Under the pieces are notes generated by a model. It did no database searches and was not told where the DNA came from. It worked only from the letters and a program-made list of their open reading frames with translations. From positions 1 to 64,000 of the forward strand of contig NZ_QOLC01000066.1 in assembly GCF_003333325.1 (NCBI RefSeq): 64,000 nucleotides of DNA, written 5' to 3'. Each line of letters opens with the position of its first letter. Positions within the stretch are counted from its first letter, which is position 1. Source of the DNA: Candidatus Ulvibacter alkanivorans (GTDB taxonomy: Bacteria > Bacteroidota > Bacteroidia > Flavobacteriales > Flavobacteriaceae). The position numbers and the translations under genes were made by a program. Shown here in pieces: positions 1,045 through 64,000 of this stretch.

Positions 1045-4000
1045 TTACACCTCTTTTGAAGCAAATTCGGAAGGCGTATATCCATAGGCTTCTTTAAAAC
1101 ATCGTGCAAAATAAGAGGGAGAATTAAATCCTACAGTATAGGCAATTTCCGAAGTAGTATTATCCGATTCTTTTAATAAGCCTGCCGCTAATCTTAATCG
1201 GTGCGAACGAATAAAAGAAGAAGTACTTTTACCAACTATTGATTTTAACTTTCTGTGCAGTTGTGTTCGACTAATATTCATTAGATCCGCAAATTTTTCG
1301 CTAGTCAACTCGGGATCGGTTATATGTGTGTCGAGAACCGACTGCATTCGTTTTAGGAATTCTGTTTCTGTCGATGTTATACCGAGGTTGGGATCGATCG
1401 TAAAAGTCTTGCTAAAATGCGCTTCCACCTTTTTTCTTGTCTCAAGTAACTGTTGCACTCTTACTTTTAGTTTTTCTACACTAAAGGGTTTTGTGATATA
1501 TGCATCGGCACCCGTTTGTAGTCCTTGAATTTCTGCTTCCTCACCAACTTTAGCTGTGAGCAATATAACGGGTATATGACTAGTAAGTTCATTTGTTTTT
1601 ATAGTGTCACAAAGTTCGATTCCGCTCTTTATGGGCATCATTATGTCACTTATAATAAGATGCGGCAGGTGTTCGATGGCTAGTTCGATGCCTGCTTTGC
1701 CGTTTTCTGCTTCCAGTATATTATATTTGAGGGTGAATACGGAAACAATATATTCACGCACTTCCATGTTATCTTCCACGATCAAAAGTGTTTCTGTATT
1801 TTTGTTATCTGAAGCTGAATTTTGTATAATCTCTTCGGAAACATTCGATCTTTGTTTTATGACGTCTTCTTCATTGAAAGCTTCTTTTACCACCGGTAAG
1901 GTGACCGTGAACTGAATGCTATTATCTCCACTCGCATGTGCAATTATATTTCCATTATGAAGATTTGCTAATTCTTTTACTAACGCCAATCCTACGCCAA
2001 TGCCTTCCGAAGACTCATCTGCCTGATAGAAGCGATTGAACAACTGATTTATTTGTCCTACGTTTCTACCATCCTTCTTGTTGGTAATGGCAAAAACGAA
2101 CCAATCTTGATCTTTTTTTGCCTGCATAGTGATTGTGGTATTCTCAACTGCATACTTTATGGCATTGTTCACTAAATTTGTTACTATTTTTTCAATCACA
2201 TCTCTGTCAAACCAACAGTTCTTTAAATTATCAAATTCATATTCGAATTCAATGCGTTTGTCTTTGGCAGCATACCGGAAAGTGTTTATGATTTGCTTTA
2301 AGAATAGTTCTAGATTGCCTTGTTCAATCTTTAACTTGATCGAACCGGAATCGGTAAGGGACAGGTCTAACATCTGATTTACCAAATGAATAAGTCGATT
2401 GCTGTTTTGTTTAATAAGCGTAAGGTCCTTTTTATCTTTTTCGGTCAATTCTTCTCGTTTTAATTGGTTTTCTACCGGTCCTGATATTAGTGTCAACGGT
2501 GTGCGTATTTCATGCGATATGTTCGTGTAAAGATTTGTTTTAAACTCATCTAATTTCTTAAGTCGTTCAGTTTCTTCATGATCTTTAAGTAGTTGATTTT
2601 GAACATTCCACCGCCACTTTAAGTAGGCATAAATTCCGTACAATAGCCATAAAAATAGAATGAGGTATATCACCTTCGCCAAGTTTGTAGCGTACCACGG
2701 TTGTGCAATGGTAAACGAATAGGCTGTTGGGGTCTCATTCCAAATACCATCGTAGTTGCTCGATATAACTTGAAAGGTGTATTCGTTTGGCGGAAGGTTG
2801 GTATAGTGTGCCACATTTGTATTATTGGCAAGTATCCAATCGGTATCGTTATTAGATAATTTGTATTTGAATTTATTCCGTTCCGGCTGAGAATAATGTA
2901 AGGATGCAAATGTGAACGTAATTGTATTTTCGTTGTGATCAAATTGTTGTCCCGGAAGTAATTCGCGTTCCGTATTAAATACTTCTAAACCGGTAATAAT
3001 GGTCTTTGGGATTACGGGATTAAAAGAAAGTTGCTCAGGATGAAACCAATTTATTCCATCTAAACCACCAAAGTACAAGTTGCCTTTATCATCTTTAAAG
3101 TAAGCCCCCGTGTTGTATTCCAATGCTTGTAGTCCGTCATAATCGGTGTAATTTTCGATTGTTGCATAATACTCACCATCTATTGTGAAATTAGACAATC
3201 CTTGATTAGAACTTAGCCATAGATTTCCTTTATCGTCGGGAAGAATGCCGTAAATAACATTATTTGGCAATCCATTTTCTCTAGTGAACGCCCGTACAGA
3301 TTCGTCGATCAAATTGTATAAGATCAATCCTTTACCATTTGTGCCTACCCAAAGTTTGTTGCTTGTATAGTATAAACTTTTGATAGGCACCGAAACCGCA
3401 TCTATTTTAGTGATAATGTTAGTTTGTATATCTAATTTGAACAACCCTTTATCTTCGGTTCCAATCCAGATTATAGAACCTTTACCTTGTTCAATGGTTC
3501 GAATGTTATTGGTAGTTAATGTAGAATTTTGACGGTTAAAGGACTTTTTGATTCCAAGTTGCGGATCGAATAGAATTAGACCTTGACTTCGAGTACATAA
3601 CCAAAGTGAGTCGTTAGCGGTCTTATAAATTTTCCAAATGGTTAAACCATTGGTCTCAGGAAAGTCTTTAAAGGTTCCGGAATTCGTCAAGTATTGTAGT
3701 CCTTTATTTTGATGGCCTATCCAAAGTCCGTTCGTATCATACGACAAGCTCATTACCCGATCACCGGCCAAATCGGAATTGTCTTTTGTAAATGTTTTAA
3801 AATTTTGTTGTGATAGCTGAAGCTGTGATAATCCTTTTCCCGAGGTTCCTAACCAAATGGTCTTCTCATTTGCGGCTATCGCTCTGGTGACATCCACTTG
3901 AATACTAATAGGAAGTTGTTTATTGGTCAATACATTGAATTTTACCAAATGCTCGTCGTAATAACTTAAACCTGCACCATCTGTACCCAACCACATAGTA

Positions 4001-4962
4001 TTTGTGAAATCTTCGTAAAGACTTAAAACATCATTGTAATGCAAAGCATACGGATTGGTCTTATTGGCAACAAAATGTCGAATGGTCTCACGTTTAAAAT
4101 CAATCAAATATGCACCTTCTCCATAGGTCGCAACCCAGAGTCGATCGCGATGGTCTATTTCAAGGTCTAAGATGTTAAGGTTTGATGAAAATGGAGCTTC
4201 TTCAAACCCTTGAAATAGCGTATACTGATTCGAGTTTTCTGGTTTTATAAAAAGACCCTTTCCATAGGTGCCGGCAAACACTACCCCTTGTTTGTTTTGA
4301 GCCAGCGCACTAAATGCTGTGTTTTCGAATCCTTCAATAAGAATAAACGAATGGGTGGTTTCAGTTACTTCTAATAAGCCTTCCGAAGTAGAAAAAAGAA
4401 GCCTGTCATTTAACTCCATACTGTCGTAGAAATGCAGAGCGCCAAGCGCGGCACTTGCTACTTTAATGGGTTCGTTTTCAGAAAGGTCAGTTACATACAG
4501 TCCATCTCCATAAGTGCCAATGTAATAATGATCATTTTTATCTTGAATGACCGTACTCGCATTTTCAATGGACGAAATAGGAGAGAAGCTATCGGTTATA
4601 GAGTTATATCGCTCCAATCGACCTGTAATTGGTATGATGAATAGTTGTCCTGCCTTGTCCACATAAACTTCACCAAGTCGACTATATGTAGGTCGCGTAA
4701 CATCTTCAAACTGTTTGCTGTATTGATAAAATCTAGTACCATCATAACGGTTAAGGCCGTCTTGAGTAGCGAACCACATAAATCCAATACTGTCCTGAGC
4801 GATGCTTACAACACTGTTTTGCGAAAGTCCTTGGGCAACGGTTAATTCCCGAAATGAAAATTGTTTTTGGAATCGCCCGTTATCTTGGCACCTAGCTAAT
4901 TGAGGAATAGACCAAAAAGCCATTGCCAAGACTGCAAATGGTAACGAGATTAATTTAGGCAT
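1045..4962 (-). CDS. hybrid two-component sensor/regulator (HTCS) with AraC output
   Basis: A one-protein signalling system of about 1305 residues. In order: signal peptide, a two-component-regulator beta-propeller (~30-670; repeats such as LWVGTNGKGL and MWLGTDGAGLSYYD), a Y_Y_Y domain (~670-755), one membrane helix (~760-778), HisKA with the phospho-acceptor His in NISHEIRTPLTL (~816), HATPase, a receiver (LIVEDNMEVREY; acceptor Asp in IISDIMMP) and a C-terminal AraC helix-turn-helix (last ~85 residues). The periplasmic propeller senses a ligand and the AraC part binds DNA. I chose ATG 4962; a TTG two codons upstream is less likely. Family members usually sit beside polysaccharide-utilisation genes, but no SusCD pair or glycosidase lies nearby, so its target is unclear. 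Confidence 0.95.
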   Translation of the reverse strand: MPKLISLPFAVLAMAFWSIPQLARCQDNGRFQKQFSFRELTVAQGLSQNSVVSIAQDSIGFMWFATQDGLNRYDGTRFYQYSKQFEDVTRPTYSRLGEVYVDKAGQLFIIPITGRLERYNSITDSFSPISSIENASTVIQDKNDHYYIGTYGDGLYVTDLSENEPIKVASAALGALHFYDSMELNDRLLFSTSEGLLEVTETTHSFILIEGFENTAFSALAQNKQGVVFAGTYGKGLFIKPENSNQYTLFQGFEEAPFSSNLNILDLEIDHRDRLWVATYGEGAYLIDFKRETIRHFVANKTNPYALHYNDVLSLYEDFTNTMWLGTDGAGLSYYDEHLVKFNVLTNKQLPISIQVDVTRAIAANEKTIWLGTSGKGLSQLQLSQQNFKTFTKDNSDLAGDRVMSLSYDTNGLWIGHQNKGLQYLTNSGTFKDFPETNGLTIWKIYKTANDSLWLCTRSQGLILFDPQLGIKKSFNRQNSTLTTNNIRTIEQGKGSIIWIGTEDKGLFKLDIQTNIITKIDAVSVPIKSLYYTSNKLWVGTNGKGLILYNLIDESVRAFTRENGLPNNVIYGILPDDKGNLWLSSNQGLSNFTIDGEYYATIENYTDYDGLQALEYNTGAYFKDDKGNLYFGGLDGINWFHPEQLSFNPVIPKTIITGLEVFNTERELLPGQQFDHNENTITFTFASLHYSQPERNKFKYKLSNNDTDWILANNTNVAHYTNLPPNEYTFQVISSNYDGIWNETPTAYSFTIAQPWYATNLAKVIYLILFLWLLYGIYAYLKWRWNVQNQLLKDHEETERLKKLDEFKTNLYTNISHEIRTPLTLISGPVENQLKREELTEKDKKDLTLIKQNSNRLIHLVNQMLDLSLTDSGSIKLKIEQGNLELFLKQIINTFRYAAKDKRIEFEYEFDNLKNCWFDRDVIEKIVTNLVNNAIKYAVENTTITMQAKKDQDWFVFAITNKKDGRNVGQINQLFNRFYQADESSEGIGVGLALVKELANLHNGNIIAHASGDNSIQFTVTLPVVKEAFNEEDVIKQRSNVSEEIIQNSASDNKNTETLLIVEDNMEVREYIVSVFTLKYNILEAENGKAGIELAIEHLPHLIISDIMMPIKSGIELCDTIKTNELTSHIPVILLTAKVGEEAEIQGLQTGADAYITKPFSVEKLKVRVQQLLETRKKVEAHFSKTFTIDPNLGITSTETEFLKRMQSVLDTHITDPELTSEKFADLMNISRTQLHRKLKSIVGKSTSSFIRSHRLRLAAGLLKESDNTTSEIAYTVGFNSPSYFARCFKEAYGYTPSEFASKEV

Positions 4963-5297: not shown

Positions 5298-6093
5298 TAA
5301 TAGCGTTGCGAACACTTTTATGGGTGTCTAATAATTGTTTTGCTTTTTCTTCGGAAACAGCCAGGGCCTCCATGATCATTCGGGTGCCACGATCTAACAA
5401 TTTGTTGTTGCTCAATTGCATATCGACCATCTTATTACCCTTTACTCGTCCCAATTGGATCATTGCCGCTGTCGAGATCATATTTAGAACTAGTTTTTGC
5501 GCAGTCCCGGCTTTCATTCTTGAGCTTCCGGTGACAAATTCGGGTCCTACCACCACCTCGACCGGTAATTGAGCGGTTGTTGCTAACGGACTTCCTTCAT
5601 TGCAAGTTATACAGCCGGTTATTATACCGTTTTCATTGCAATGCTTTAGCGCGCCAATTACATATGGAGTGGTGCCCGAAGCAGCAATCCCAATAACAAC
5701 ATCCTTATCAGAAATCTGATGTTCCTGCAGATCATTCCAACCTTGATGGTGCGAATCTTCTGCAAACTCAACCGCTTTGCGCATCGCAGCATCCCCGCCT
5801 GCCATAAGTCCAACGACCAAGCCGTGCGGTACACCAAAAGTAGGAGGGCATTCGCTTGCATCTACGATTCCTAAGCGACCACTAGTACCGGCGCCAATAT
5901 AAAAAAGGCGTCCACCGTTCTTTAATTTTTCTGAAACGGCTTCGGAAAGTTTTGTGATCTGTGGTAGCGCTTTTTCAACAGCCTTGGGCACCTTTTTATC
6001 TTCAGAATTAATATGAACTAATAATTCTGAAACACTCATTTTTTCCAAATGATCGTAGTGTGAAGCTGCCTCTGTTGTTTTGGTAAAAGCCAT
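5278..6093 (-). CDS. murQ: N-acetylmuramic acid 6-phosphate etherase
   Basis: A 271-residue cytoplasmic SIS-domain lyase. It cleaves the lactyl ether of MurNAc 6-phosphate to GlcNAc 6-phosphate and D-lactate in muropeptide recycling. The signature FYIGAGTSGRLGIVDASE, the following CPPTFGVP and the GSSRMKAGTAQKL stretch are diagnostic. The length fits the shorter Bacteroidota form. I chose ATG 6093 because the reading begins MAFTKTTEAASHYDHLEKMS; the longer frame needs a TTG. A TAnnTTTG box lies 3 nt upstream of this ATG, so transcription may start at the start codon. DUF6095 overlaps its 3' end. Confidence 0.95.
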   Translation of the reverse strand: MAFTKTTEAASHYDHLEKMSVSELLVHINSEDKKVPKAVEKALPQITKLSEAVSEKLKNGGRLFYIGAGTSGRLGIVDASECPPTFGVPHGLVVGLMAGGDAAMRKAVEFAEDSHHQGWNDLQEHQISDKDVVIGIAASGTTPYVIGALKHCNENGIITGCITCNEGSPLATTAQLPVEVVVGPEFVTGSSRMKAGTAQKLVLNMISTAAMIQLGRVKGNKMVDMQLSNNKLLDRGTRMIMEALAVSEEKAKQLLDTHKSVRNAINAYKNA

Positions 6094-6923: not shown

Positions 6924-9283
6924 TAAAATTTAAAATTATAGGTTACTGCCGGGATGATTCCGAAGATAGAAAGACGAACAGCCTCGTTTCTACCCACATC
7001 ACTATTTTCTCTAAACGAAATCGATGCTGCGTTCATTCGGTTGTATACATTGTAGACACTAAATACCCATTCACTCTTCCATCTTTTTTTAGAATTTGGT
7101 TTGGGAACCCAAGTAGCCGAGAGGTCCAAGTGATGGAAATCTGACAACCGACTGCTGTTTCGAGCCTCGTATACAGGAACTACGATGTCGTTGTAAATAT
7201 ATTGTCCGTTAGGAAATGTAAACGGTTGTCCGGTTTGATAAATAAAATTTGCCCCGAACGACCATTTTTTATTTAGTTCATACTGGCCGGTAATACTAAT
7301 ATCATGTGTTTTATCCCAGGCAGACCGGTACCATTCACCATTGTTGATTCCAATCTCTACTGGGGTTCTGCCCGGCGTTCGTTGTTCACTTCGAGAAAGT
7401 GTGTAAGCGATCCAACCTTGCAGTTTTCCTTCAGTTTTACGAAATAATACTTCTAACCCATAAGCACGTGCTTCCCCTTTAAGTAAGATCTGTTCTACGG
7501 CATTATTGGCAATAAGATCGGCGTCGTCTACATAATCTAATCGGTTTTTCACGATTTTATAGTACGATTCCACTTCTAGCGAGTAATCTTCAAAATTTTT
7601 GAAATATCCAACCGCAACCTGATCGGCTAACTGTGGATCGAGATACTTGCCACTAGGTGCATAAATATCGAAAGGGGTAGGAGAGGTCGTATTACTTATA
7701 AGATGGATGTACTGCGACATACGATTGTAGCTGGCCTTGACCGAAGAGGTCTCTGTTAATTGGTATGCAATTGCAATTCGAGGTTCAAGATTCACAAACG
7801 ACTTTATAGTTTCGTTTCGATCAAAGGAGACTGTATCTATAGGGGTTGCTTTTTGATAAATGTCTAAGGCTTCGTTATACACTATAGGATTATCATTGGC
7901 ATAAATGTTTAAAGCATCTTGCCCCAGACGATTAAAGGTGGAGAGTCGTACACCTGCCTGCACGGCTAATTTATCGGAAACCGTTACCTCGGCTTCTGCG
8001 TAGAGCGCATTTTCAAAGGCGTACTTGTTGGTCAATTTGAACGGATTGATCCCGGAGCTTTCGGTAGTGGGTTTTATACTTCCCGGATTAAATTTGTAAT
8101 AAATGCTATTTAAGCCGTAGTGTAGTTCTATTTTTTCTGAAAGATAATGGGTAAGGTCATACTTCAAGTTTCCATTGCGAATGCCACTTTCAAAATCAAA
8201 TTCTACAAAACTAAGTTCGAGTCCGTAGAAGTAATCGGAATAGATCAACGATAGATTACTAAACAACTTTTCAGAAAACAAATGGTTCCACCGTACATTG
8301 AAGGTGCTGTTTCCGAAGCTATTCGAAAAACTGTCGGATATACTAAACACATCTCTTCCGAAGTAACCCGACAAATACAGCCTATTGGTATCGTTCAAAT
8401 TGTAACTTATCTTGGTGTTTAAATCGTAGAAATACGCGACATTGTCATTATCGAACAGTGGAAGGAACAAGTGGGCATAACTGCTGCGTCCACCCACTAA
8501 GAAGGAGGCAGTGTCCTTTTTTATCGGGCCTTCCAATAACAGCCTACTGGCAACCACACCAATACCGCCATTCGCTCTAAATTCTTTTTTGTTGCCATCT
8601 TTTTGATAAATATCGAGCACCGAAGAAATTCGACCGCCATAACGTGCCGGAATTCCGCCTTTGTACAAGGTGAGGTCTTTAATGGCGTCGGGATTAAATA
8701 CGGAAAAAAACCCAAATAAATGCGATGAATTGTAAAGGGTAGCCTCATCTAAAAGCACCAAGTTTTGATCGGCAGCCCCGCCGCGAACGTTGAATCCGCT
8801 GGCCCCTTCACCGGCATTTGTGACTCCGGGAAGTAAGGTGATCGACTTAATTACATCGGTCTCTCCTAAGACCACAGGGATCTTTTTGATGGTGTTCATC
8901 GATAAGGAATTAACACTCATCTGTGGTTTTCGGATGTTGAGTTTTTCAATATCCGATTTTAAGATCACCTCATCCAGGGTTTCGGTATCAGTTTCCAAGA
9001 CCACCGACTTCACCGTATTCTTGTTCAATTCTATGGTAAAGCTTTTGGTCGTAAAACCAAGCGTACGATAAAAAACCTCATAGGAACCTTCGGGAAGCGT
9101 GATCGAATAGAAACCATATTCATTAGTAATAGCCCCCGCTTGCATAGACGGAATGATGACATTAACGCCAATTAAGGTCTCACCCGACTCAGCTTCAGCT
9201 ACAGTACCACTAAGGGTATATTTGGTTTGGGCGACTAACGAAATGCTTCCGAAGCAACACAGAAGCAGTAGAAAATATTTCAA
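6923..9283 (-). CDS. TonB-dependent outer-membrane receptor with carboxypeptidase-like N-terminal domain
   Basis: 786 residues: signal peptide (LLLLCCFGSISLVAQ), a carboxypeptidase-regulatory-like domain (~20-105; GTVAEAESGETLIGVNVII), a TonB plug (~115-225; GFNVRGGAADQNLVLLDEA) and a 22-strand-type barrel ending in an aromatic (VTYNFKF). It imports an unknown ligand using TonB/ExbBD energy. The start codon is TTG, because no ATG lies near the signal peptide. A TACTTTTA box (9294-9301) sits about 10 nt upstream. The stop overlaps the DUF4249 start (TAATG). At 786 residues it is shorter than SusC proteins (~1000), which fits the DUF4249-linked class. Confidence 0.93.
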   Translation of the reverse strand: MKYFLLLLCCFGSISLVAQTKYTLSGTVAEAESGETLIGVNVIIPSMQAGAITNEYGFYSITLPEGSYEVFYRTLGFTTKSFTIELNKNTVKSVVLETDTETLDEVILKSDIEKLNIRKPQMSVNSLSMNTIKKIPVVLGETDVIKSITLLPGVTNAGEGASGFNVRGGAADQNLVLLDEATLYNSSHLFGFFSVFNPDAIKDLTLYKGGIPARYGGRISSVLDIYQKDGNKKEFRANGGIGVVASRLLLEGPIKKDTASFLVGGRSSYAHLFLPLFDNDNVAYFYDLNTKISYNLNDTNRLYLSGYFGRDVFSISDSFSNSFGNSTFNVRWNHLFSEKLFSNLSLIYSDYFYGLELSFVEFDFESGIRNGNLKYDLTHYLSEKIELHYGLNSIYYKFNPGSIKPTTESSGINPFKLTNKYAFENALYAEAEVTVSDKLAVQAGVRLSTFNRLGQDALNIYANDNPIVYNEALDIYQKATPIDTVSFDRNETIKSFVNLEPRIAIAYQLTETSSVKASYNRMSQYIHLISNTTSPTPFDIYAPSGKYLDPQLADQVAVGYFKNFEDYSLEVESYYKIVKNRLDYVDDADLIANNAVEQILLKGEARAYGLEVLFRKTEGKLQGWIAYTLSRSEQRTPGRTPVEIGINNGEWYRSAWDKTHDISITGQYELNKKWSFGANFIYQTGQPFTFPNGQYIYNDIVVPVYEARNSSRLSDFHHLDLSATWVPKPNSKKRWKSEWVFSVYNVYNRMNAASISFRENSDVGRNEAVRLSIFGIIPAVTYNFKF

Positions 9284-9403: not shown

Positions 9404-11671
<2,268 letters not shown>

Positions 11672-11714: not shown

Positions 11715-12253
11715 ACTATTTGAAGAGGGTTTTAAAAGTGCGTTTACCTTATTGTTTTGTTAAGAACAACAGCCGTTAGATCGTTTTTTTGGTCTAATGT
11801 TATACTTAAGCATCGATCACACTTCCGAAGAAAACAAACACCTAAAACAAGAAAAGCCATATCAATGTACTGCTACAGTGCTATGGCTCCTTGTGAAACA
11901 CATCGTTACCAACTATCTGCTCAATGGCAGATCGAGGTGAGTTTATTAAACCCTCACAGTTGTGATCTGTTTCAAAGAGATTTGTTTTTGTATTGAACCA
12001 ATAACATAAAGTTATTCTATGTCTCAAAAAACAATCTCGAACTTCTCTTTAATCTCAACCCTAACAAATCGCTAGGACCGTTAGCGTTTCAAACGATTAA
12101 AAAAAAGTATATAAAGAACGTTGCTTTATTGTATCGTAATGACTGTTACATCATTTTGATACTGCTAATATAGAACACAATTTTTAGTACGCAAGTTTTC
12201 TATCACATTAGATACGAACAACTTATAAACCCCTATTATTAACATTTGTTCAT
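11715..12253. other. gene-free interval with successive strong hairpins; candidate structured RNA
   Basis: No convincing protein gene lies between the icd promoter and the rplS terminator. It holds four foldable units. One is TTAGATC/GGTCTAA (11776-11782 with 11791-11797). The second is a two-part stem, AGCCATA (11855-11861) with TATGGCT (11882-11888), then GTACTG with CAGTGC around a CTA loop, with a one-sided 5-nt bulge. The third is ATCTGC/GCAGAT (11915-11920 with 11927-11932). The fourth is TCAC/GTGA (11954-11965). Beyond 12000 the interval is AT-rich and shows little. No tmRNA, RNase P or SRP consensus was recognised. A plus-strand RNA could end at the bidirectional terminator at 12254-12287. 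Confidence 0.35.
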
Positions 12254-12659: not shown

Positions 12660-12732
12660 TGCTCTTTAATTTAATGGGTTTGTTTACAACAACATACACG
12701 TACATCGCCAGAGGTTGGGGTAAAATCGAGTG

Positions 12733-12905: not shown

Positions 12906-14702
12906 CTATTCGACCTCCTTTTCCGAAGCAATCCAACGTTCTATCTTATCTTCCAATAGTGCTAAAGGCACACAACCGGTTTCTAACACCTCATTGTGAT
13001 AGGTCTTAATATCGAAGGCATCACCCAACTCCTTATTTGCCATATTGCGCAATTCGCGGATCTTTAATTGTCCTATCTTATACGACAACGCCTGACCCGG
13101 ATTTGCCATATAACGCTCTATTTCTGATATAATGCTCGCTTCACTTTCGGCTTCGTTCGCCAACGAATATTCGATCGCCTCTTCGCGCGTCCAACCCTTA
13201 GCATGCATACCGGTATCTACGACCAATCGAATGGCGCGGTGCATTTCGGCACCCAACATTCCGAAGTATTGGTACGGATCGGTAAACAGCCCAAGCTCTT
13301 TTCCTAACGACTCACAATACAAGGCCCATCCCTCGCCATAACCGCTATACCATAAGGTCTTTCTAAATTGGGGCAGGTCTTCGTTCTCCTGCGTCAACGA
13401 GATCTGATAATGATGCCCGGGAATGGCTTCATGCAAGAACAACGACTCATCCGAATAGACATTATAGGTGGTCGCATCCGGAATAGGTACATAGAAAATA
13501 CCGGGTCGCGTACCGTCAAGAGAGCCCGGATTGTATTCTGCACTAGATGAATTTTCTCGGAACGCTTCGGTACGTCTTACCTCGAAAGCTGTTTTTGGTT
13601 TAAGATCGAACAAGACGTCTATCTTTGGTTTCATGCGCTCATAGATGGCATTAAAGTTTTCAATTACTTCATTTGGTTCTTGGTAGGGCATAAGCTCAGG
13701 GTTATTTCGCACATAATCGAAGAACGAACGTAGGTCTCCCTTATAACCTACTTGATTCTTTATCTTTTCCATCTCGCCGGAAATGCGCGCTACTTCATTC
13801 AATCCTAATTGGTGGATCTCCTCAGCAGTCATATTGGTGGTTGTATATTTCTTTATCTGATGCTGGTAATAAGCTGCTCCGTTCGGGATCTCGTCAATAC
13901 CTGTGCCTTCTCGAGCCTTCGGTAGATATTCATTCGCCATAAAATCGTGTACGCTTTGGTAGGCCGGGATCACTTTTTCGGTGACCATGCGTTCGTACTT
14001 TTTGGTCAACTCTTCTTTTTCTGCTTCGGAAAAATCTTGAGGAAAGATAGCAACTGGAGCATAGAACAAATGTTGCTCGACATTGGGCTCGGTCATTTCT
14101 TTTAACTGTGGTAAGATCTTCACTACTAAGGATTTTGGAAGTACATATCCTTCCTTCATCCCTTGTCGCATATTCGACTCGGCTGTTTTTAACCATACTA
14201 AATATCCGTCTACACGCTCAAGCCAATCGTTATAGTCTGCAACTGTGTTGAACGGCTGTGCACTCGCACCACTCGCCAACTGACCCATAAACAGATTTAC
14301 AGACCACATTTGATCGATCGGAAAATAGCGATTGTTCATAAAGTTCAACTCTTCCAAATGAATATCGCATTCCCATTTAAGGATGTTCTTGCTCATTAAC
14401 TGACTTTCAGAGAGTGTGTCATCCGGATAGTCGTTTAGTTGCTCCTTTATAGAAGTGTAATACGTTTCTAATTTGGCGATATAATCCTCAGATAGTGTAT
14501 TAGGAAATTGGTCGTTATAGCGATTGTCGCCCGCTGCCGTTGCCGATATCGGATCTAATTTGAGTCCTTCTTCATAATAGGTTTCAAGTAAGGTGTCAAA
14601 TGCTTCGTTGTACGAAGATTGCATAGCGGTTTCATTTTTTGGTGCATCCTTACAGGCTGAAATAATAAGAAGTAAGGAAACCATGAGAATAGATCGTTTC
14701 AT
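12906..14702 (-). CDS. DUF885 family lipoprotein, predicted metallopeptidase
   Basis: 598 residues. The lipoprotein signal MKRSILMVSLLLIISAC puts the lipidated cysteine at ~17. The rest is the DUF885 all-helical fold, with the zinc-type motif LFLHEAIPGHHYQ and a downstream GEGWALYCESLGKELG helix carrying the probable third ligand. These proteins are related to dipeptidyl or carboxy-peptidases; the substrate is unknown. It is anchored in the periplasm or at the surface. It lies between trmD and rplS with a REP-like repeat at its 3' end, and may be a lineage-specific insertion into a once contiguous trmD-rplS pair (inference). Confidence 0.9.
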   Translation of the reverse strand: MKRSILMVSLLLIISACKDAPKNETAMQSSYNEAFDTLLETYYEEGLKLDPISATAAGDNRYNDQFPNTLSEDYIAKLETYYTSIKEQLNDYPDDTLSESQLMSKNILKWECDIHLEELNFMNNRYFPIDQMWSVNLFMGQLASGASAQPFNTVADYNDWLERVDGYLVWLKTAESNMRQGMKEGYVLPKSLVVKILPQLKEMTEPNVEQHLFYAPVAIFPQDFSEAEKEELTKKYERMVTEKVIPAYQSVHDFMANEYLPKAREGTGIDEIPNGAAYYQHQIKKYTTTNMTAEEIHQLGLNEVARISGEMEKIKNQVGYKGDLRSFFDYVRNNPELMPYQEPNEVIENFNAIYERMKPKIDVLFDLKPKTAFEVRRTEAFRENSSSAEYNPGSLDGTRPGIFYVPIPDATTYNVYSDESLFLHEAIPGHHYQISLTQENEDLPQFRKTLWYSGYGEGWALYCESLGKELGLFTDPYQYFGMLGAEMHRAIRLVVDTGMHAKGWTREEAIEYSLANEAESEASIISEIERYMANPGQALSYKIGQLKIRELRNMANKELGDAFDIKTYHNEVLETGCVPLALLEDKIERWIASEKEVE

Positions 14703-14817
14703 AATAGGATAAAATTAAAATAAGAGTGTGTTAAAGATACAGATAAAAAATACTTCTTAATTCTAGATCGCTTGTACAAGGTTGTTTGATAGAGCAATAG
14801 CTTCCGAAGAAAGAATG

Positions 14818-16585: not shown

Positions 16586-16615
16586 ATCGTTCAGCTTTCC
16601 GAAGAAAGCATACAA

Positions 16616-35736: not shown

Positions 35737-37770
<2,034 letters not shown>

Positions 37771-51426: not shown

Positions 51427-52992
51427 ATGAATAAAAAGCTTTTTGCTTTACTAATCGCCCTAATGTCCCTCTCGTTATTGGGAATTATTTTTGTTCAAGG
51501 GTATTGGATCGCAAATTCGTATCAAACAAAGGATGATCAGTTTAAAATTAATGTACGTCAAATTCTTAGTTCGGTAGCAAAGAAAATACAAGTAAGGGAG
51601 GCGGAAGATTACTATAATCTTTATAGTGGTTTGATCGATAGCGCGAACATTCCAGACAATGTCACTATGAGCGAATTGATCTATAAAACACAGAACGATC
51701 GCACCAAAGAAACCGTCATATTTTCGGATGGGATTCTCGCCGAAGATTACAAACTTTCTTCTAGCTTTTTAGACCTTGAAGAAACCGATAGTATACAGTT
51801 TAAAAAGTTAACGAATCGAAAAAGTACGACCACCTTCAAAGAAGGCGTCGACGGCGGTGGCATAACAAAAAGTTATAATGAGTCGTTTAGCCGATTAACC
51901 GACTACGAGCGGAGTCATTTCGAACACTTCTTTAAGAATATCTCGGCCAAACAACCGTTACATAAAAGAGTAGAAGCCGAAGAAATTGAAGCGAACATAC
52001 AAAATGAACTGGAGAATTACGGATTGAAGTCGAAGTTCGAATTCGCGGTGTATAGCAACGGACTGGCGACCAAAGTGCGTTCAAGGAATTTTAATTTGAA
52101 TCCAGACACGACCTACGATGTCCCCCTTTTTGTGAACGATGAAGCCGATACCAGCTATACGCTGTATGTGAATTTCTTCGAAAAGGAGAAATTAGTATTG
52201 AATTCTATTCTCGGAATGGCTATTTTATCGCTGGTATTTACAGGAGTGATCGTCTTGGCCTACGCCAATGCACTCTCCCAAATATTTAAGCAACGACAGA
52301 TATCACAAATTAAAAGTGATTTCATTAACAATATGACGCATGAGTTTAAAACACCAATTGCGACCATAAACCTAGCTTTAGATGCGCTTAAGAATCCTAA
52401 GGTAAAAGACAATAAAGAGTTTTTATCGCGCTACTTAGGCATGATCCGAGACGAGAACAGACGCATGCACGCTCAAGTGGAAAATGTATTGCGAATCTCT
52501 AAATTAGAGAAGAACGAGTTGGACCTGCCCAAGGAACGTATTAAACTGCATGAGGTAGTAGAAGATGCGATCACGCACATTAGTTTAATTGTTGAAGATC
52601 GTGGCGGGTATGTAAAGACGCATTTCGGTGCCTTGAAATCGTCGGTATTGGGGAATGAGTCCCACTTGACCAATGTAGTAGTGAATTTATTGGATAATGC
52701 GATCAAATATTCCGAAGGACCACCGAAGATAGACGTGTTTACAGAGAATGTAAAGAATAGCATTATATTAAAGATCCGTGACCAAGGAATTGGTATGAGT
52801 AAAACGGTTCAGAAAAAAATATTTGAAAAATTTTATCGAGAACATACAGGAGACATTCACAATGTGAAAGGACATGGGCTTGGACTAGCCTATGTAAAAC
52901 GTATTCTCGATGATCACGATGCGCAAGTATACGTGGAAAGCGAAAAAGACAAAGGCAGCACCTTTATTATAAAACTACACTTAATATCTTAA
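51427..52992 (+). CDS. sensor histidine kinase (RprX-like)
   Basis: 521 residues from ATG 51427. Membrane helices: ~5-28 (LFALLIALMSLSLLGIIFVQ) and ~255-280 (ILGMAILSLVFTGVIVLAYA), enclosing a ~225-residue periplasmic sensor region. HisKA carries the acceptor His in INNMTHEFKTPIATINLALD (~305). The ATPase has VNLLDNAIKYSEGPPKID, IRDQGIGMSKT and NVKGHGLGLAYVKRILDD. It pairs with the response regulator 4 bp downstream. The arrangement resembles RprX/RprY of Bacteroides; the signal is unknown. Confidence 0.93.
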   Translation: MNKKLFALLIALMSLSLLGIIFVQGYWIANSYQTKDDQFKINVRQILSSVAKKIQVREAEDYYNLYSGLIDSANIPDNVTMSELIYKTQNDRTKETVIFSDGILAEDYKLSSSFLDLEETDSIQFKKLTNRKSTTTFKEGVDGGGITKSYNESFSRLTDYERSHFEHFFKNISAKQPLHKRVEAEEIEANIQNELENYGLKSKFEFAVYSNGLATKVRSRNFNLNPDTTYDVPLFVNDEADTSYTLYVNFFEKEKLVLNSILGMAILSLVFTGVIVLAYANALSQIFKQRQISQIKSDFINNMTHEFKTPIATINLALDALKNPKVKDNKEFLSRYLGMIRDENRRMHAQVENVLRISKLEKNELDLPKERIKLHEVVEDAITHISLIVEDRGGYVKTHFGALKSSVLGNESHLTNVVVNLLDNAIKYSEGPPKIDVFTENVKNSIILKIRDQGIGMSKTVQKKIFEKFYREHTGDIHNVKGHGLGLAYVKRILDDHDAQVYVESEKDKGSTFIIKLHLIS

Positions 52993-53763: not shown

Positions 53764-54658
53764 GCTTTTTTAGAACAGCTAGTACATCGCTTACTGCAAC
53801 CGGGGCCTCAAACCACCTTATGGCGTCGTTCTTGCGAAACCAGGTTCCTTGACGTTTGGCAAAGCGGCGGGTATTCTTCTTTATTTCTGAAACTGCAGTT
53901 TCCAGAGGATACTCACCATCTAAATAGGCGAATAATTCTTTATAACCAACCGTTTGTAATGCATTCACTTCGCGATGCGGGTATAGTTCTTTTGCTTCGG
54001 AAAGCAAACCGGACTGCATCATAAGGTCGACACGCTTGTTGATGCGTTCGTAGACGATAGGGCGATCGGCTTTGATGCCTATGTATTCAGTTCGAAATTT
54101 TCGAGCTACCGATTTCTTTTTCAAAAATGAAGAGAATGGTCTTCCTGTTCCTCTAATGATCTCAAGCGCGCGTATTATTCGATGTGGGTTTTGAATGTCA
54201 GCTTTTTTGTAATATTCAGGGTCTGCTGCCTTTAATTCGTTTTGAAGCACTTCAATACCATGGTTCGTTAATACATTTTGTAGTTCTTGACGTATTAATG
54301 AAGACACTTCCGGAAAATTGTCCAATCCGTTGGTTACAGCATCTACATACAAACCGGAACCACCAACTAATATAACGACTGGGTGTTTTTTAAACAATTC
54401 GTCCAGCTTCAGTAGGGCTTCCCGTTCAAAATCACCTACGGTAAACGATTCGAAGATGCTTTTATTTTGAATAAAATGATGAGGTGCAGCAGCTAGTTCT
54501 TCCGAAGTAGGAACCGCTGTACCAATAGTCATTTCTTTATAGAATTGCCGCGAATCGGCCGAAATGATCTCAGTATTAAACGCCTTCGCTAATTCGATAG
54601 CCAAGTTGGTTTTTCCAATTGCCGTAGGGCCTACAACACAAATTAACAGTGGTTTCAA
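53750..54658 (-). CDS. miaA: tRNA dimethylallyltransferase
   Basis: About 302 residues from TTG 54658 (KPLLICVVGPTAIGKTNLAI); upstream codons are unconserved. It transfers dimethylallyl to A37 of tRNAs reading UNN codons. The P-loop VGPTAIGKTNLA, the EIISADSRQFYKEMTIGTAV motif and the C-terminal QTVGYKELFAYLDGEYPLET and NTRRFAKRQGTWFRKN are diagnostic. It lies 14 bp behind the channel gene on the same strand. The stop lies in the terminator loop of the convergent operon. Confidence 0.95.
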   Translation of the reverse strand: MKPLLICVVGPTAIGKTNLAIELAKAFNTEIISADSRQFYKEMTIGTAVPTSEELAAAPHHFIQNKSIFESFTVGDFEREALLKLDELFKKHPVVILVGGSGLYVDAVTNGLDNFPEVSSLIRQELQNVLTNHGIEVLQNELKAADPEYYKKADIQNPHRIIRALEIIRGTGRPFSSFLKKKSVARKFRTEYIGIKADRPIVYERINKRVDLMMQSGLLSEAKELYPHREVNALQTVGYKELFAYLDGEYPLETAVSEIKKNTRRFAKRQGTWFRKNDAIRWFEAPVAVSDVLAVLKKQKTP

Positions 54659-55568: not shown

Positions 55569-56948
55569 CTAATTTACCGTATCCTTCGCCAACTTTACAG
55601 TCTTTAGCACTTTGCCTTTCCGAAGAAACGATTGTATAATATGTTGTGCATCTCGATTGTTCTGCATCGGATTAATGATCGATCTCAATATTTCAAGATT
55701 GTTAATTTGGTGGTTTAGGTTGTAATATCCAAATCCTTTGTACTCGCCATTCTCAATAAGTATGACCGAGCGCTCGTCTACATCTCTTCCTTTGTCGATA
55801 AGTAGCATATGCTGGTTTTCATAGCTGTGATCGTTTAAAAAGTCACGAACACGTTCGTTGTACGCATCAAAAGGTTCTTTTAGTATACATGCGCCATGAC
55901 ACTCTTTTATGCTGTAGCTAAAACAACTTCCGTCTACCGAATGCAGCCCGGTCAGTTTTTGACAAAGGCTGTATTTTTCGGTGATAGCGAACAAGGTAGA
56001 TTTTGCTTGTTGGAGATTGGTAAATGTTGTGATTGGAGCTGTTTTGCCGGTTGCTTTAACAATTTTCAAATTAATATAACCCTCATCATCAGTAAAGGAA
56101 ATCAACTTATGTGAATATAGTTTTTTTCGCAATGCGCGGTTATACACCGGATTGTTACTCTTTATTTCGGCACTCTCCTTTAACAGTGCGATCAATTCAC
56201 TTCCTGTAGTCTCATAACTTACGTCTGTAACCTCTAGTTGTATCTTTTTCGACTTGCGGTTATCACTGGTAAAATGTTGAATAAGTCGTTTCTGTATGTT
56301 CTTACTTTTACCAATATAAATCACCTCTCCGGCCTTGTTGTGCATATAATATACACCCGTATCGGTAGGAGCGGCATCAATGATCTCCAATAATTTTGGC
56401 TCTAGTTGTCGCTTTGGGTCTTTTTTGATCGACTTGGTAATGATCTCTTTCTTACTATCCTTGTTCAGTAACATTTTGAACAACGCTACCGTTGCCTTGG
56501 CATCTCCTTGTGCTCTGTGGCGATCGCTTAGTGGGATTCCTAACGAGCGTACTAATTTCCCTAAACTGTAGGAGGGAAGATCGGGAATCAACTTCTTAGC
56601 CAATTCTACGGTACAGAGGGTGTCTTTTTCGAACGGATATCCGAGTCGGTCGAATTCGGTGGTTAGGATTCGGTTATCGAATTTAGCATTATGGGCCACA
56701 ATGATACAACCGTCGGTAATTTCGATGATTCGCTTAGCAACCTCGTAAAATTTTGGAGCATTTCGTAGCATCTCGCTATTAATGCCGGTGAGGTTTACAA
56801 CGAAGGGTTGGATCTTACGTTCCGGATTGATGAGGCTTGCAAATTGATCGACGACTTTTTGTCCGTCGAAGCGGTAAATTGCAATTTCAGTAATGCCTTC
56901 TTCATTGTATTTTCCTCCCGTCGTTTCTATATCTAAAATTGCGTACAT
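55569..56948 (-). CDS. DnaQ-like exonuclease fused to GIY-YIG nuclease
   Basis: 459 residues. The N-terminal 3'-5' exonuclease (~1-165) has ExoI MYAILDIETTGG (DxE), ExoII IIVAHNAKFDNRIL and ExoIII HRAQGDAKAT. The GIY-YIG domain (~195-280) has TGVYYMHNKAGEVIYIGKSK and NIQKRLIQHF, like the UvrC N-terminus. The C-terminal part resembles the rest of such Cho/epsilon-type fusions. It probably acts in DNA repair or degradation. It is not a PolC or DnaE partner by itself. The order is conserved with yggS upstream. Confidence 0.9.
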   Translation of the reverse strand: MYAILDIETTGGKYNEEGITEIAIYRFDGQKVVDQFASLINPERKIQPFVVNLTGINSEMLRNAPKFYEVAKRIIEITDGCIIVAHNAKFDNRILTTEFDRLGYPFEKDTLCTVELAKKLIPDLPSYSLGKLVRSLGIPLSDRHRAQGDAKATVALFKMLLNKDSKKEIITKSIKKDPKRQLEPKLLEIIDAAPTDTGVYYMHNKAGEVIYIGKSKNIQKRLIQHFTSDNRKSKKIQLEVTDVSYETTGSELIALLKESAEIKSNNPVYNRALRKKLYSHKLISFTDDEGYINLKIVKATGKTAPITTFTNLQQAKSTLFAITEKYSLCQKLTGLHSVDGSCFSYSIKECHGACILKEPFDAYNERVRDFLNDHSYENQHMLLIDKGRDVDERSVILIENGEYKGFGYYNLNHQINNLEILRSIINPMQNNRDAQHIIQSFLRKGKVLKTVKLAKDTVN

Positions 56949-57762: not shown

Positions 57763-59001
57763 TTAGAACTCATAGATCGTAACACCACTACGTAATTTTG
57801 GTTCGATATAAGTGCTTTTTGGAGGCATTTTCAACCCTTCATCTGCGATCTGTTTCATTTCTTCTGTGGTGATTGGCAGCAAACCAAATCCAACTTTAAA
57901 TTCTCCGGTATCGACGGCTGTTTTTACAAAGGCCAAATCGTTCTTACCATGCGAGTAGGCGATTCGTTTGTCATTCCGAAGATCTTCTATTCCTAACACT
58001 GGTTTTAAGATGGTCTTATAGAGTATTTGAGGGTCTAAGGCATCAAGCGCATTTTCTATAGGATACCTCTGTTTCCGAAGGTATAACGAATAGAACGATC
58101 CGTCGAGATACATACTAAAATGGTGCTTTTTAGAAGGCTTGTAATATTCTTGCCCCCGTTTTTCGATGCGGAACATTGCATCTAACTGAATCAAGAACTC
58201 TTCTTTGCTCAACCCGTTTAGATCTTTCACCAACCTGTTGAACTCATAGATCTTTAAGTCACTTTCCGGAATAAGAAAACTCATAAAATAATGATACGAG
58301 TTTTTGGAGTTTGAGTTTGTAGCGTTTAGTTCTTCATCTTTTGCCAAAAGATATGAGGATGCCGACCTATGATGCCCATCGGCAATATACAAGGTATTCA
58401 TGCCTTTAAAAATGTTCTTGATCTTCTTGACCAATTCGGCATCGCTAACATTCCACAAATAATGCGTATCTCGATAGGTGGTGGTAAATTCGTATTCGGC
58501 CCTTGACTCCATTTGCGTCGCAATGATTTGTTCGAGCTCCGCGTGATCGGGATAGGTTAACAATACCGGTTCAGCGTTAAAACCAACAGTCTTTAAATAT
58601 TCCTTAAAGATGATCTCTCTAAATTCTAACGTCTCTTCGTGTTTCTTGATCACATCTTTTTCATAATCGCTAGCACTTGCCGCTGCAACTACACCGTTAA
58701 ATTCGAGTCCGTCACGATTTACAATTCTATAGAAATAGAACGAAGGCGTATCGTCTTGCATAAAAATACCATCCTCCTTAAATTCTTGATAGCGATTTCG
58801 TACCAAGGTATAACGAGCACGACCCGAAATTTCTTTTTCGTATTTATATCCCGGATTTATAATATGTAAAAAGGAAAACGGATTATCCCTAAGTCTAGCT
58901 TCTACTTGAGCAGTGGAGTAGCTGTCGTACGAACGGGACGCGATCAAACTTACCTTGTCGCGTGTAGGTCGTACGGCTTTAAAAGGAATAATCGTTGCCA
59001 T
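57763..59001 (-). CDS. DUF1015 family protein
   Basis: 412 residues. It opens MATIIPFKAVRPTRDKVSLI, with SYSTAQVEARLRDNPFSFLH, FYFYRIVNRDGLEFNGVVAA, the motif TLYIADGHHRSASSYLLAKD and YSHGKNDLAFVKTAVDTGEF. This family has an unknown function, sometimes fused to serine kinase-like (SbnI/SerK) domains. The DGHHR motif is characteristic of the family and probably forms the active site. It lies 6 bp behind the hydroxyacyl-CoA dehydrogenase. Confidence 0.92.
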   Translation of the reverse strand: MATIIPFKAVRPTRDKVSLIASRSYDSYSTAQVEARLRDNPFSFLHIINPGYKYEKEISGRARYTLVRNRYQEFKEDGIFMQDDTPSFYFYRIVNRDGLEFNGVVAAASASDYEKDVIKKHEETLEFREIIFKEYLKTVGFNAEPVLLTYPDHAELEQIIATQMESRAEYEFTTTYRDTHYLWNVSDAELVKKIKNIFKGMNTLYIADGHHRSASSYLLAKDEELNATNSNSKNSYHYFMSFLIPESDLKIYEFNRLVKDLNGLSKEEFLIQLDAMFRIEKRGQEYYKPSKKHHFSMYLDGSFYSLYLRKQRYPIENALDALDPQILYKTILKPVLGIEDLRNDKRIAYSHGKNDLAFVKTAVDTGEFKVGFGLLPITTEEMKQIADEGLKMPPKSTYIEPKLRSGVTIYEF

Positions 59002-60875: not shown

Positions 60876-60891
60876 TGAAATCTGTTTTTCA

Positions 60892-61645: not shown

Positions 61646-61668
61646 CAACTCACAGTAGTTTTCTATCG

Positions 61669-62046: not shown

Positions 62047-62095
62047 GGTAGTTGTTTTCCTTATGACATGAGAAATTAAAAAGGTTGCGTGCTTC

Positions 62096-64000
62096 TTATT
62101 CAATAATATTCAAAAACTTTAGTCCAAATATGAATGCACCTTCACTTGTACCGTGATAGAAATTACGAACGTAATCTAAACGTAGCAGTCGGTATTTTCC
62201 AATACCCAAATTGTCTATTCCTATTGATACTTCAGTGTAGGGCTTATTGTCGGCAATGCTTAAGGCATGCGCGCCTAGAATGAGATTAAAATTAAGTTGG
62301 TTCAATCCCGGGATCTTTCCGAGGAAAAACCCTTTAAAATCATGCTCTATATGACCTTCAAAATAGCTTTTATTGGTGCTTAGTGCATAATATGGCAACA
62401 AGTTAAAAGAATTTGTATAATTAGGTGTGGTGCCAACTCGTGTTTGGTTGCCGTTAAAATGTTGATAGTCCACGAACGAAATAGCATCCCCATTAAAAAA
62501 GGTACCGCCTTTTAGCCGGTATCTAAAATCGCCTTTATTGCCAAGCGTAATTCGTTGGTATAAACTTGCTCGTAACTGGCTGTAATTATAGCCGTCTTCG
62601 GAAGCTGCTGTCCCATTTTCAAATGTGATCTGCAACGCGGGATAATCGCCACTACCTAAATTGTACTTTCCGTCAGGATAAGTCATGTATTTTTGATCGA
62701 AGGTGATGTTGGCTGTGATATTGGATTTGAAAATAGTATGTTCTAGTATAGCTGCGCTGTTTTCTTCGGAAGGGTTTAATGGATTGTTAGACGTGAAGGA
62801 TACATCATCATTTGGAATGGTCACATAGTCTGTATTATTAAAAAGGGGCTTTCGTTCTTCATAACTAAAATTTGTGAACAGTCGCAGTCCATTAAATACC
62901 TCTTGACTATATCCGAAGCCGCCGTAATTCATTTCATATACCTTCATATAATTTCGTTCAAAAAACAGTGTGGCAATCGAATTGATCAACGGTGATATTG
63001 GTGCTGCTGCATTAAATTGTTGTACCGTGCTTCCGCCGTACAACGATAAGCGAAGACGGTTGGTTCGATTAAAGTTTTTAACGATACCCCCGGTAAGTCG
63101 CAGTCGGTCGTCGGCGATACCATAGGTAGCTCTCGAATATACCTGTAACCATTTTGTCTGATTCTCATCGTACCATTTAAAATACGACAATCCGGCGCTA
63201 CCATTCCACCCTTGCACCGTATTGAACTGGATCCCGGGGAGTGGACCTTCGTATCGAATACGCCATTGGTCGTAACTATTTTGATAGGTGTAACCGGTAA
63301 ATGGGTCGAGCAGTTGTAATCGGTTTTGTTTCGCATCGATAGAATCTAAATATACCTTAGATTTTCGAAGTGTTTGGATGCTGTCTTTTTTTATGTAATC
63401 ATTTAATTCTTCGTCGGTAAGTGGAACCGGACGAGTACCTTTCCAAAACAGGCTGTCTTTTTTATTTGCGGCTTCGGCAAAGGATAGGACTTCATTGGTA
63501 AAGGAACCTTTATTAAATTCGGGCGTAAAATCGTAGTTGCTATATACGGCTATAAAGCGGCCGTCGCCTTCCACACCAAAAAATCCAAAACTAAAATCGA
63601 TCGTTTGCGAGATCTTGATCCAAAAGTTAGTCTGTTCGTCGTATTTAAAATTCTGTTTAAACACCAAGGTATTGATAAATGGAACTTGAATTGCATCTCC
63701 GTTAGTAGTTAACTCCACACCGTACAACTGCCAATCATCTTCTACGATATACAAATAGCCTTCCCAGACTCGGTCCTTGGGTCGACGTGGCGTCACTTTG
63801 ATCTTATTAATAAGCTTGTCTTCTTCGTAAAAAACACCATCTAGATTGTATTGATAATAACTTAAGGCGTTATTGGCGATAGGGGAAACGATCGCGGCAT
63901 TTAGGTCTAGGGTGTTCTCGTAAAAAGAAAAATTGGCCTCTTGGGCACTGTTAAAACTAAATCCGTTGTCATTGCCACTTACCTTACTGGCGATGATCTT
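62096..64000 (-). CDS. DUF5686 family protein (5' part cut by window end)
   Basis: 635 codons are in the window and the frame stays open to its last base, so the start lies beyond it. The upstream part includes NSAQEANFSFYENTLDLNAA, SPIANNALSYYQYNLDGVF and INKIKVTPRRPKDRVWEGY; the rest is a large barrel-like C-terminus (LRLSLYGGSTVQQFN, FKGFFLGKIPGLNQLNFN, LRLDYVRNFYHGTS) ending GLKFLNIIE. This matches the DUF5686/carboxypeptidase-regulatory-like proteins of Bacteroidota, predicted outer-membrane barrels of unknown function. The missing N-terminus should carry a signal peptide and a CarboxypepD_reg domain. Confidence 0.88.
   Translation of the reverse strand, partial: KIIASKVSGNDNGFSFNSAQEANFSFYENTLDLNAAIVSPIANNALSYYQYNLDGVFYEEDKLINKIKVTPRRPKDRVWEGYLYIVEDDWQLYGVELTTNGDAIQVPFINTLVFKQNFKYDEQTNFWIKISQTIDFSFGFFGVEGDGRFIAVYSNYDFTPEFNKGSFTNEVLSFAEAANKKDSLFWKGTRPVPLTDEELNDYIKKDSIQTLRKSKVYLDSIDAKQNRLQLLDPFTGYTYQNSYDQWRIRYEGPLPGIQFNTVQGWNGSAGLSYFKWYDENQTKWLQVYSRATYGIADDRLRLTGGIVKNFNRTNRLRLSLYGGSTVQQFNAAAPISPLINSIATLFFERNYMKVYEMNYGGFGYSQEVFNGLRLFTNFSYEERKPLFNNTDYVTIPNDDVSFTSNNPLNPSEENSAAILEHTIFKSNITANITFDQKYMTYPDGKYNLGSGDYPALQITFENGTAASEDGYNYSQLRASLYQRITLGNKGDFRYRLKGGTFFNGDAISFVDYQHFNGNQTRVGTTPNYTNSFNLLPYYALSTNKSYFEGHIEHDFKGFFLGKIPGLNQLNFNLILGAHALSIADNKPYTEVSIGIDNLGIGKYRLLRLDYVRNFYHGTSEGAFIFGLKFLNIIE

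Follow-up and report, generated by a model that had tools for sequence, protein, structure and literature searches.

A polar, highly iterated octamer with an A-rich flank in Flavobacteriaceae chromosomes: a candidate DNA uptake sequence

The octamer TTCCGAAG is densely scattered through a 64,000-nucleotide stretch of Candidatus Ulvibacter alkanivorans (contig NZ_QOLC01000066.1, positions 1 to 64,000; hereafter the window) and through the chromosomes of several other members of the family Flavobacteriaceae. With a probability of roughly one half, TTCCGAAG and the A-rich stretch of about 15 bp downstream of it are the footprint left by a sequence-specific DNA uptake (self-recognition) system in certain lineages of this family; from this footprint we infer a role of the word in uptake, with transformation as the driving force. 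By comparison of their features, its anatomy matches that of the DNA uptake sequence (DUS) and the uptake signal sequence (USS), which have been reported only from Neisseriaceae and Pasteurellaceae. An initial annotation, made from the letters of the window alone, had flagged the octamer and proposed counting it genome-wide, plotting its orientation around origin and terminus, and examining conservation at aligned sites. All three analyses were performed, the genome-wide counts being those of relatives' genomes rather than of the window's own. "Ulvibacter" below denotes such a relative.

An exact word count identified 59 sites in the window (33 on the plus and 26 on the minus strand; Table 1), running from 1147 to 62764-62771, whereas 2.5 are expected under an order-1 and 4.1 under an order-2 Markov model. 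This agrees with the initial estimate by eye of nearly 60 copies, far above expectation, and makes TTCCGAAG the commonest 8-mer of the window. The maximal-order Markov expectation is much higher, at 52.7, because the heptamers within TTCCGAAG are themselves enriched. The heptamer TTCCGAA occurs 70 times, leaving 11 copies without the final G; such sites had been noted initially, their number being given as about eight.

Most window sites read Ser-Glu or Phe-Gly, as would suit a by-product of codon or codon-pair preference. The counts refute that explanation, and its probability is practically negligible. In 100 synonymous-codon shuffles that preserved each protein and each gene's codon usage, the coding DNA of the window retained 5.0 ± 2.2 copies (largest value 13) against 57 observed; TTCCGAAG was the most enriched 8-mer by this measure, with no other 8-mer close. 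Similarly, Ulvibacter coding DNA holds 132 copies against 14.6 after shuffling. The 57 sites within called genes (genes being called by a simple longest-ORF (open reading frame) rule) occupy all six frame and orientation classes (sense 22, 1 and 1; antisense 15, 13 and 5), where the initial annotation had argued from at least three reading frames that one dipeptide cannot explain them. The remaining two sites (14802 and 16597) are not in called genes, so the word is found in gaps as had been claimed, and its excess there is as large as in genes. With an order-2 model trained separately on each compartment, the observed/expected ratio is 13.9 in intergenic DNA (24 sites) and 11.0 in genes of Ulvibacter, 6.3 (11 sites) and 5.5 in genome G103, and 25 (2 sites) and 14.2 in the window. 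Sense and antisense sites are also about equally frequent in Ulvibacter and G103 (figures below). Codon, codon-pair and dipeptide preference are therefore rejected by the shuffles in the window and Ulvibacter and by the intergenic excess. According to the initial annotation, the idea would fall if codon use accounted for the copy number and intergenic DNA held no surplus; TTCCGAAG survives on both counts.

The octamer proposed initially stands as the core of a longer word. Across 283 Ulvibacter sites in 400 kb, the share of A is elevated between +8 and about +22 and near background beyond; upstream, position -1 (T/C) stands out and -2 does so weakly. Compared with 21 words one letter off TTCCGAAG, the A fraction from +8 to +22 is 0.457 vs 0.335 in Ulvibacter (p 1e-22), 0.400 vs 0.300 in G103 (p 3e-13) and 0.408 vs 0.298 in the window (p 1e-4), and these three contrasts are alike when all 24 one-off words are used. 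The corresponding values in Psychroserpens burtonensis are 0.531 vs 0.373 at one-off words (p 1e-5). An AT-rich flank beside the core, a USS-type feature, is thus present and strong in these four. Pooled over Ulvibacter and the window, the tract has an A fraction of 0.508 at sense sites (n=155), 0.379 at antisense sites (n=161) and 0.523 at intergenic sites (n=26), the Ulvibacter base fraction being 0.316; since it occurs in all three classes alike, it is not produced by coding.

The word is strongly polar, with 283 copies of TTCCGAAG vs 119 of CTTCCGAA in the Ulvibacter sample. It is not self-complementary and its tract is one-sided, so it fails the palindrome that defines a highly iterated palindrome (HIP). 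Within 30 bases on each side of the Ulvibacter sites, no similarity was found upstream of -2 or beyond +22 (at most 0.08 bits per position). With no information beyond core and tract in Ulvibacter, a dispersed repeat, such as a repetitive extragenic palindromic element or an insertion sequence remnant, is rejected. Of all positions of the word, the fourth varies by far the most in Ulvibacter and the window. Ulvibacter and G103 (loci L085-L104 and L135-L154) also show weaker enrichment of a second form, TTCAGAA with an A-rich tract behind it; among TTCAGAA forms in the window, only TTCAGAAA is enriched (20 vs 5). Another relative of the word, TTCCGCAG, one letter off TTCCGAAG, is enriched in coding DNA of genome G243 (L220-L226), with 27 copies vs 4.9 in synonymous shuffles.

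Whole genomes were scored on both strands by the ratio of TTCCGAAG copies to copies of the reversed word as control. Ulvibacter antarcticus (3.8 Mb) has 2,678 copies (control 245), Altibacter sp. HG106 (3.2 Mb) 2,187 (322), Cochleicola gelatinilyticus 1,495 (187) and P. burtonensis 1,060 (173), so the genome-wide excess that the initial annotation had proposed to test is borne out in relatives. By hand tally, 41 of 397 family genomes, in several separate lineages, reach 200 or more copies and a ratio to the control of two or higher. A few smaller cases exceed twofold with fewer than 200 copies (e.g. G374, 174 vs 5), and most of the others, judged by eye over the 397, are at or below control; the Aquimarina, Winogradskyella and Algibacter genomes searched lie at 0.3 to 1.1 times control. 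Word discovery was run without pools of homologous loci, because shared gene sequence inflates word counts in such pools; in six of the 12 samples scanned for dominant words (G061, G017, G405, G409, G267 and G195), no word passed z 10.

Kinship of the carriers was examined in quick single-gene trees, using a hand-picked set of 24 enriched (more than twofold) and 24 unenriched (about 1.0 or less) genomes that excluded ratios of 1.1 to 2. In the LigA tree of these 48, the enriched genomes fall into three groups, namely 19 in one clade, three including P. burtonensis, and the pair G243/G395, a pattern requiring three changes. A larger LigA tree added eight loci, mostly intermediates, and the window. 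The window falls inside its main clade (97% in the Shimodaira-Hasegawa-like approximate likelihood ratio test), which also includes the weak genomes Luteirhabdus (L017, 1.5), Aureisphaera (L014, 1.5), L016 (1.1) and L012 (2.0); G078 and G289 fall outside, and the minimum rises to 8 changes. With weak genomes inside the clade and this rise from 3 to 8, a single gene leaves the number of gains and losses unfixed.

Orientation of TTCCGAAG is independent of replication and transcription. In G103, represented by a 3.14-Mb contig of a 3.2-Mb genome, the plot around origin and terminus showed no strand skew: 78 sites lie on the leading and 70 on the lagging strand (p 0.57; 20 stretches of 20 kb, replichores assigned from GC-skew blocks, with L147, a stretch of 10 sites near the inferred origin, left out of this count). 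When all stretches were signed by their own skew, the ratio was 79:79. Orientation is also balanced along one 1.04-Mb Ulvibacter contig (143:140), and sense and antisense sites number 131:128 in Ulvibacter, 75:72 in G103 and 24:33 in the window. In the absence of a replication-strand or sense bias, a site read by a translocase, a Chi site biased by fork repair or a site read in RNA is not expected; a replication-orientation motif, such as the FtsK-orienting polar sequences (KOPS), is rejected because neither G103 nor Ulvibacter shows strand polarity.

Ulvibacter sites are more clustered than random, with 19 neighbours closer than 60 bp vs 10.9 expected. Inverted pairs closer than 60 bp number 13 in the window, Ulvibacter and G103 samples, and 12 of them lie in genes. 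The pair at 48920/48930 noted initially is real and lies within a glycosyltransferase gene (48793-49794); being intragenic, it is not an intergenic terminator. Inverted DUS pairs often serve as terminators; this role is rejected for the flavobacterial pairs, given the intragenic position of 12 of 13. Among the 13 pairs (in L087-L152 and, in the window, at 34346/34394 and 48920/48930), 12 diverge, with the tracts pointing outward, and one converges.

Positions of TTCCGAAG change between species while its density largely persists. Window genes were compared with orthologues in 24 of 80 loci (22 genes having any orthologue), and a site was kept in place in 52 of 428 comparisons (12%), vs 3 to 8% for any 8-mer; the same relatives' orthologues nonetheless hold 182 TTCCGAAG sites in all. 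This aligned-site comparison thus gave low conservation of place in orthologues that are still dense in the word. The sites also occupy permissive places in proteins: amino-acid identity at motif codons is 0.497 vs a gene mean of 0.639 (p 5.5e-4, 23 sites), whereas it is 0.726 (gene mean 0.689) at 75 Ser-Glu, Phe-Gly or Ser-Gly pairs that lack the word. Two stretches carrying defence islands give a hint of scarcity, with one site in 20 kb beside SspB, SspC and SspD (L150) and two sites in 20 kb beside Hachiman HamA/HamB (L104); these were the only islands looked at and were chosen in hindsight as the poorest in sites. Their poverty may be set beside a study that, by its title, reportedly used genomic distributions of DUS dialects to identify integrative and conjugative elements (PMC7371117).

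Together, the density, polarity, A-rich flank, indifference to strand and frame, turnover, permissive placement and hint of island scarcity make up an uptake-sequence profile. Under this reading, double-stranded DNA outside the cell would be bound at core and tract by a hypothetical competence protein of the surface or envelope and so be taken up preferentially. Import and recombination would follow through ComEC, DprA and RecA, and over evolutionary time this bias would multiply the word at positions where the encoded protein tolerates it. In Haemophilus influenzae, the 1,465 USS cores have AT-rich flanks that contribute to uptake (PMC7811141). The flavobacterial word resembles the USS in being short, present in more than 1,000 copies and accompanied by AT-rich segments beside the core, and differs in that its core is unrelated, its tract is one weak continuous A-rich segment and its link to uptake comes from the footprint. 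Its copy number is also similar to that of the Neisseria DUS (1,892 in N. meningitidis, PMC7811141). A 2025 paper (PMC12616744) names the type IV minor pilin ComP as the reader of the DUS, whereas the flavobacterial reader is hypothetical; the same paper states that only Neisseriaceae and Pasteurellaceae are known to discriminate DNA this way. The flavobacterium Riemerella columbina was preferentially transformed by its own DNA in competition tests, and the k-mer lists of its authors contain A/T-rich words only (PMC7965970). No uptake word for this bacterial group was found in a literature search that left most subscription journals and all preprints uncovered. Tentatively, TTCCGAAG may be the first example of a DNA uptake sequence beyond the Neisseriaceae and Pasteurellaceae and in a different phylum (Bacteroidota), read by a machine that shows no type IV pilus motor in most carriers searched, with the same octamer serving several separate lineages of one family.

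Several observations weigh against an uptake function. Enrichment is graded rather than all-or-none, near relatives lying at 1.1 to 2.0 times control, and the A tract is weak in the Aequorivita loci (0.372 vs 0.333, p 0.016; p 0.052 with all 24 words) and in G243 (0.353 vs 0.304, p 0.019; p 0.041 with all 24 words). Competence genes occur in relatives, which counts for uptake without proving natural competence, but the ComEC, DprA and DUF5689 families were each found in 47 of the 48 genomes searched, G204 (a 2.2-Mb metagenome-assembled genome) having none of the three; present in 24 of 24 genomes without the word and 23 of 24 carriers, they do not discriminate. On trees of the DUF5689 protein and its operon partner, the enrichment label changes 7 and 5 times, respectively, vs 3 on LigA (48 rows) or 4 (the same 46 rows, larger tree). 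The ATPase family PF00437 of type II secretion and type IV pili gave a strong match in only four of 23 carriers (this search and that for PF12705 covered 23 of the 24 enriched genomes, G204 being excluded). A fifth carrier lay just above the cut-off (25.4 bits), and the search, which covered the ATPase and not pilins, gave no match in Ulvibacter (G281) and no strong match in 19 of the 23, another difference from the USS. Possible readers of a Chi site, AddAB-like nucleases, are present in all 23. Finally, no uptake experiment was found for any carrier species in the literature searched, most subscription journals and all preprints being outside the search.

The DUF5689 pair was itself considered as a reader of the word and was rejected, since its trees show no sign of tracking it. 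These trees cover 46 of the 48 rows, leaving out G166, whose neighbour was not recognised, and G204, which has no match. A similar ORF stands before the DUF5689 gene in 46 of 47 genomes, and the two partners checked contain a DUF5689 domain, with no match to a TonB receptor. On the trees, the DUF5689 protein and its partner hardly differ between L126 (G245) and L128 (G003), although the LigA end branches of these genomes are 0.11 and 0.14 long; this suggests exchange of the pair. The domain occurs two or three times per protein (frames of 690-903 aa) in L105 (G007), L108 (G049), L121 (G116), L122 (G286) and L129 (G078).

Codon bias, KOPS and dispersed repeats are excluded by the results above, and the same data argue against Chi and palindrome explanations. 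A Chi-like site, read by AddAB/RecBCD in double-strand-break repair and accumulated by protecting chromosomal DNA, would likewise be an iterated polar octamer, dense and with its reader at hand: PDDEXK_1 (PF12705) matches fall in two large ORFs of about 910-940 and 1,050-1,080 aa, some 5 kb apart, in 23 of 23 carriers, and the word is scarce in the two defence islands. It is nevertheless quite unlikely, as the E. coli Chi strand bias is 75%, a value that the 78:70 count in one complete-looking chromosome rejects (p 5e-9); Ulvibacter is equally balanced, and we know of no Chi site with an adjoining A-rich tract. A HIP-like word, generated by a bias of methyltransferase-linked mismatch repair as proposed for cyanobacterial HIP1, is very unlikely. 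HIPs have been linked to methyltransferases (Elhai 2015, PMC4390886), and like HIP1 and the alternate HIPs the flavobacterial word is a dominant iterated word in genes and gaps. Its core is almost an odd palindrome (CTTCCGAAG, with 26 copies in the window), and certain members of the family do carry a true 14-bp palindrome as an iterated word. The word is, however, non-palindromic and strongly polar with a one-sided tract, and its C-to-T/G-to-A neighbours are not strongly depleted (TTTCGAAG 1.0, TTCTGAAG 5.4, TTCCAAAG 1.0 and TTCCGAAA 0.8 times expectation), which also rejects very-short-patch repair of deaminated C. One of the other four transition neighbours is low, CTCCGAAG (2 vs 9).

A site for an abundant protein that structures the chromosome, or for another DNA-binding protein without a part in uptake, kept dense by direct selection, is an unlikely alternative. 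A-rich tracts beside a GC-containing core suit many DNA-binding proteins, and most of the strongly enriched genomes fall in one large LigA clade. Turnover, permissive placement and the lack of orientation order suit drive but are compatible with such a protein too. With the orientation tests set against Chi and replication motifs, and the one-sided A tract against a plain palindrome, an uptake sequence is left as the best fit among the four classes that the initial annotation had listed without choosing (DNA uptake sequence, Chi, replication-orientation motif and iterated palindrome).

The window's 64 kb represent ordinary core chromosome of a member of the Flavobacteriaceae, with dnaA, ligA, recN, coaBC, mltG, a GAPDH gene, genes for two proteins sorted by the type IX secretion system and further housekeeping genes. 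Its LigA shares 85% identity with that of an Altibacter metagenome-assembled genome and 84% with that of Aequorivita. A Flavobacteria L19 ribosomal-protein leader RNA (Rfam RF03130) lies at 12690-12717 on the minus strand.

Table 1. Exact occurrences of the octamer on the two strands of the window.
Feature	Positions	Strand	Context
TTCCGAAG site	1147..1154	+	
TTCCGAAG site	2005..2012	+	
TTCCGAAG site	4381..4388	+	
TTCCGAAG site	6958..6965	+	
TTCCGAAG site	8311..8318	+	
TTCCGAAG site	8356..8363	+	
TTCCGAAG site	9247..9254	+	
TTCCGAAG site	11823..11830	+	
TTCCGAAG site	12921..12928	+	
TTCCGAAG site	13259..13266	+	
TTCCGAAG site	14802..14809	+	outside called genes
TTCCGAAG site	16597..16604	+	outside called genes
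TTCCGAAG site	21587..21594	+	
TTCCGAAG site	23560..23567	+	
TTCCGAAG site	23632..23639	+	
TTCCGAAG site	23713..23720	+	
TTCCGAAG site	27235..27242	+	
TTCCGAAG site	28152..28159	+	
TTCCGAAG site	31779..31786	+	
TTCCGAAG site	31854..31861	+	
TTCCGAAG site	34394..34401	+	
TTCCGAAG site	34712..34719	+	
TTCCGAAG site	35632..35639	+	
TTCCGAAG site	37449..37456	+	
TTCCGAAG site	40424..40431	+	
TTCCGAAG site	43186..43193	+	
TTCCGAAG site	43336..43343	+	
TTCCGAAG site	48930..48937	+	right half of divergent inverted pair, intragenic
TTCCGAAG site	52710..52717	+	
TTCCGAAG site	54500..54507	+	
TTCCGAAG site	55618..55625	+	
TTCCGAAG site	57974..57981	+	
TTCCGAAG site	58073..58080	+	
TTCCGAAG site	1833..1840	-	
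TTCCGAAG site	5349..5356	-	
TTCCGAAG site	5940..5947	-	
TTCCGAAG site	9469..9476	-	
TTCCGAAG site	14024..14031	-	
TTCCGAAG site	20663..20670	-	
TTCCGAAG site	25895..25902	-	
TTCCGAAG site	27396..27403	-	
TTCCGAAG site	31679..31686	-	
TTCCGAAG site	32709..32716	-	
TTCCGAAG site	34346..34353	-	
TTCCGAAG site	35087..35094	-	
TTCCGAAG site	37999..38006	-	
TTCCGAAG site	39887..39894	-	
TTCCGAAG site	39971..39978	-	
TTCCGAAG site	40953..40960	-	
TTCCGAAG site	42202..42209	-	
TTCCGAAG site	43089..43096	-	
TTCCGAAG site	43455..43462	-	
TTCCGAAG site	44985..44992	-	
TTCCGAAG site	48920..48927	-	left half of divergent inverted pair, intragenic
TTCCGAAG site	49314..49321	-	
TTCCGAAG site	50461..50468	-	
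TTCCGAAG site	53995..54002	-	
TTCCGAAG site	62596..62603	-	
TTCCGAAG site	62764..62771	-	

A different word is iterated elsewhere in the family. The 14-bp perfect palindrome GCTTTCGCGAAAGC has 578 sites in G014, 408 in G192, 857 in G208, 664 in G244 and 609 in G396, and at most 19 in each of the other 392 of the 397 genomes, its reversed control giving at most one per strand. In Dokdonia sp. MAG-87 (G407; L067, L232-L239), coding DNA holds 57 copies of CTTTCGCGAA, where synonymous shuffles leave 1.1. G014, G244 and G396 join G407 on one LigA tree and not on the larger one, the trees containing neither G192 nor G208. No paper containing CTTTCGCGAAAG was found in the literature searched, most subscription journals and all preprints being outside it.

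The chromosomes of some marine bacteria thus carry a scattered word far beyond what chance or protein coding would give, and its nearest likeness appears to be the tags that let a few other bacteria recognise their own DNA during uptake. If this is true, the marking of self-DNA arose a further time, in Bacteroidota, and probably relies there on a different uptake machine. The word would be a candidate sequence to seek behind the own-DNA preference of Riemerella columbina (PMC7965970). It would also offer a handle for the genetics of environmental flavobacteria, in which adding the word to donor DNA should raise transformation.

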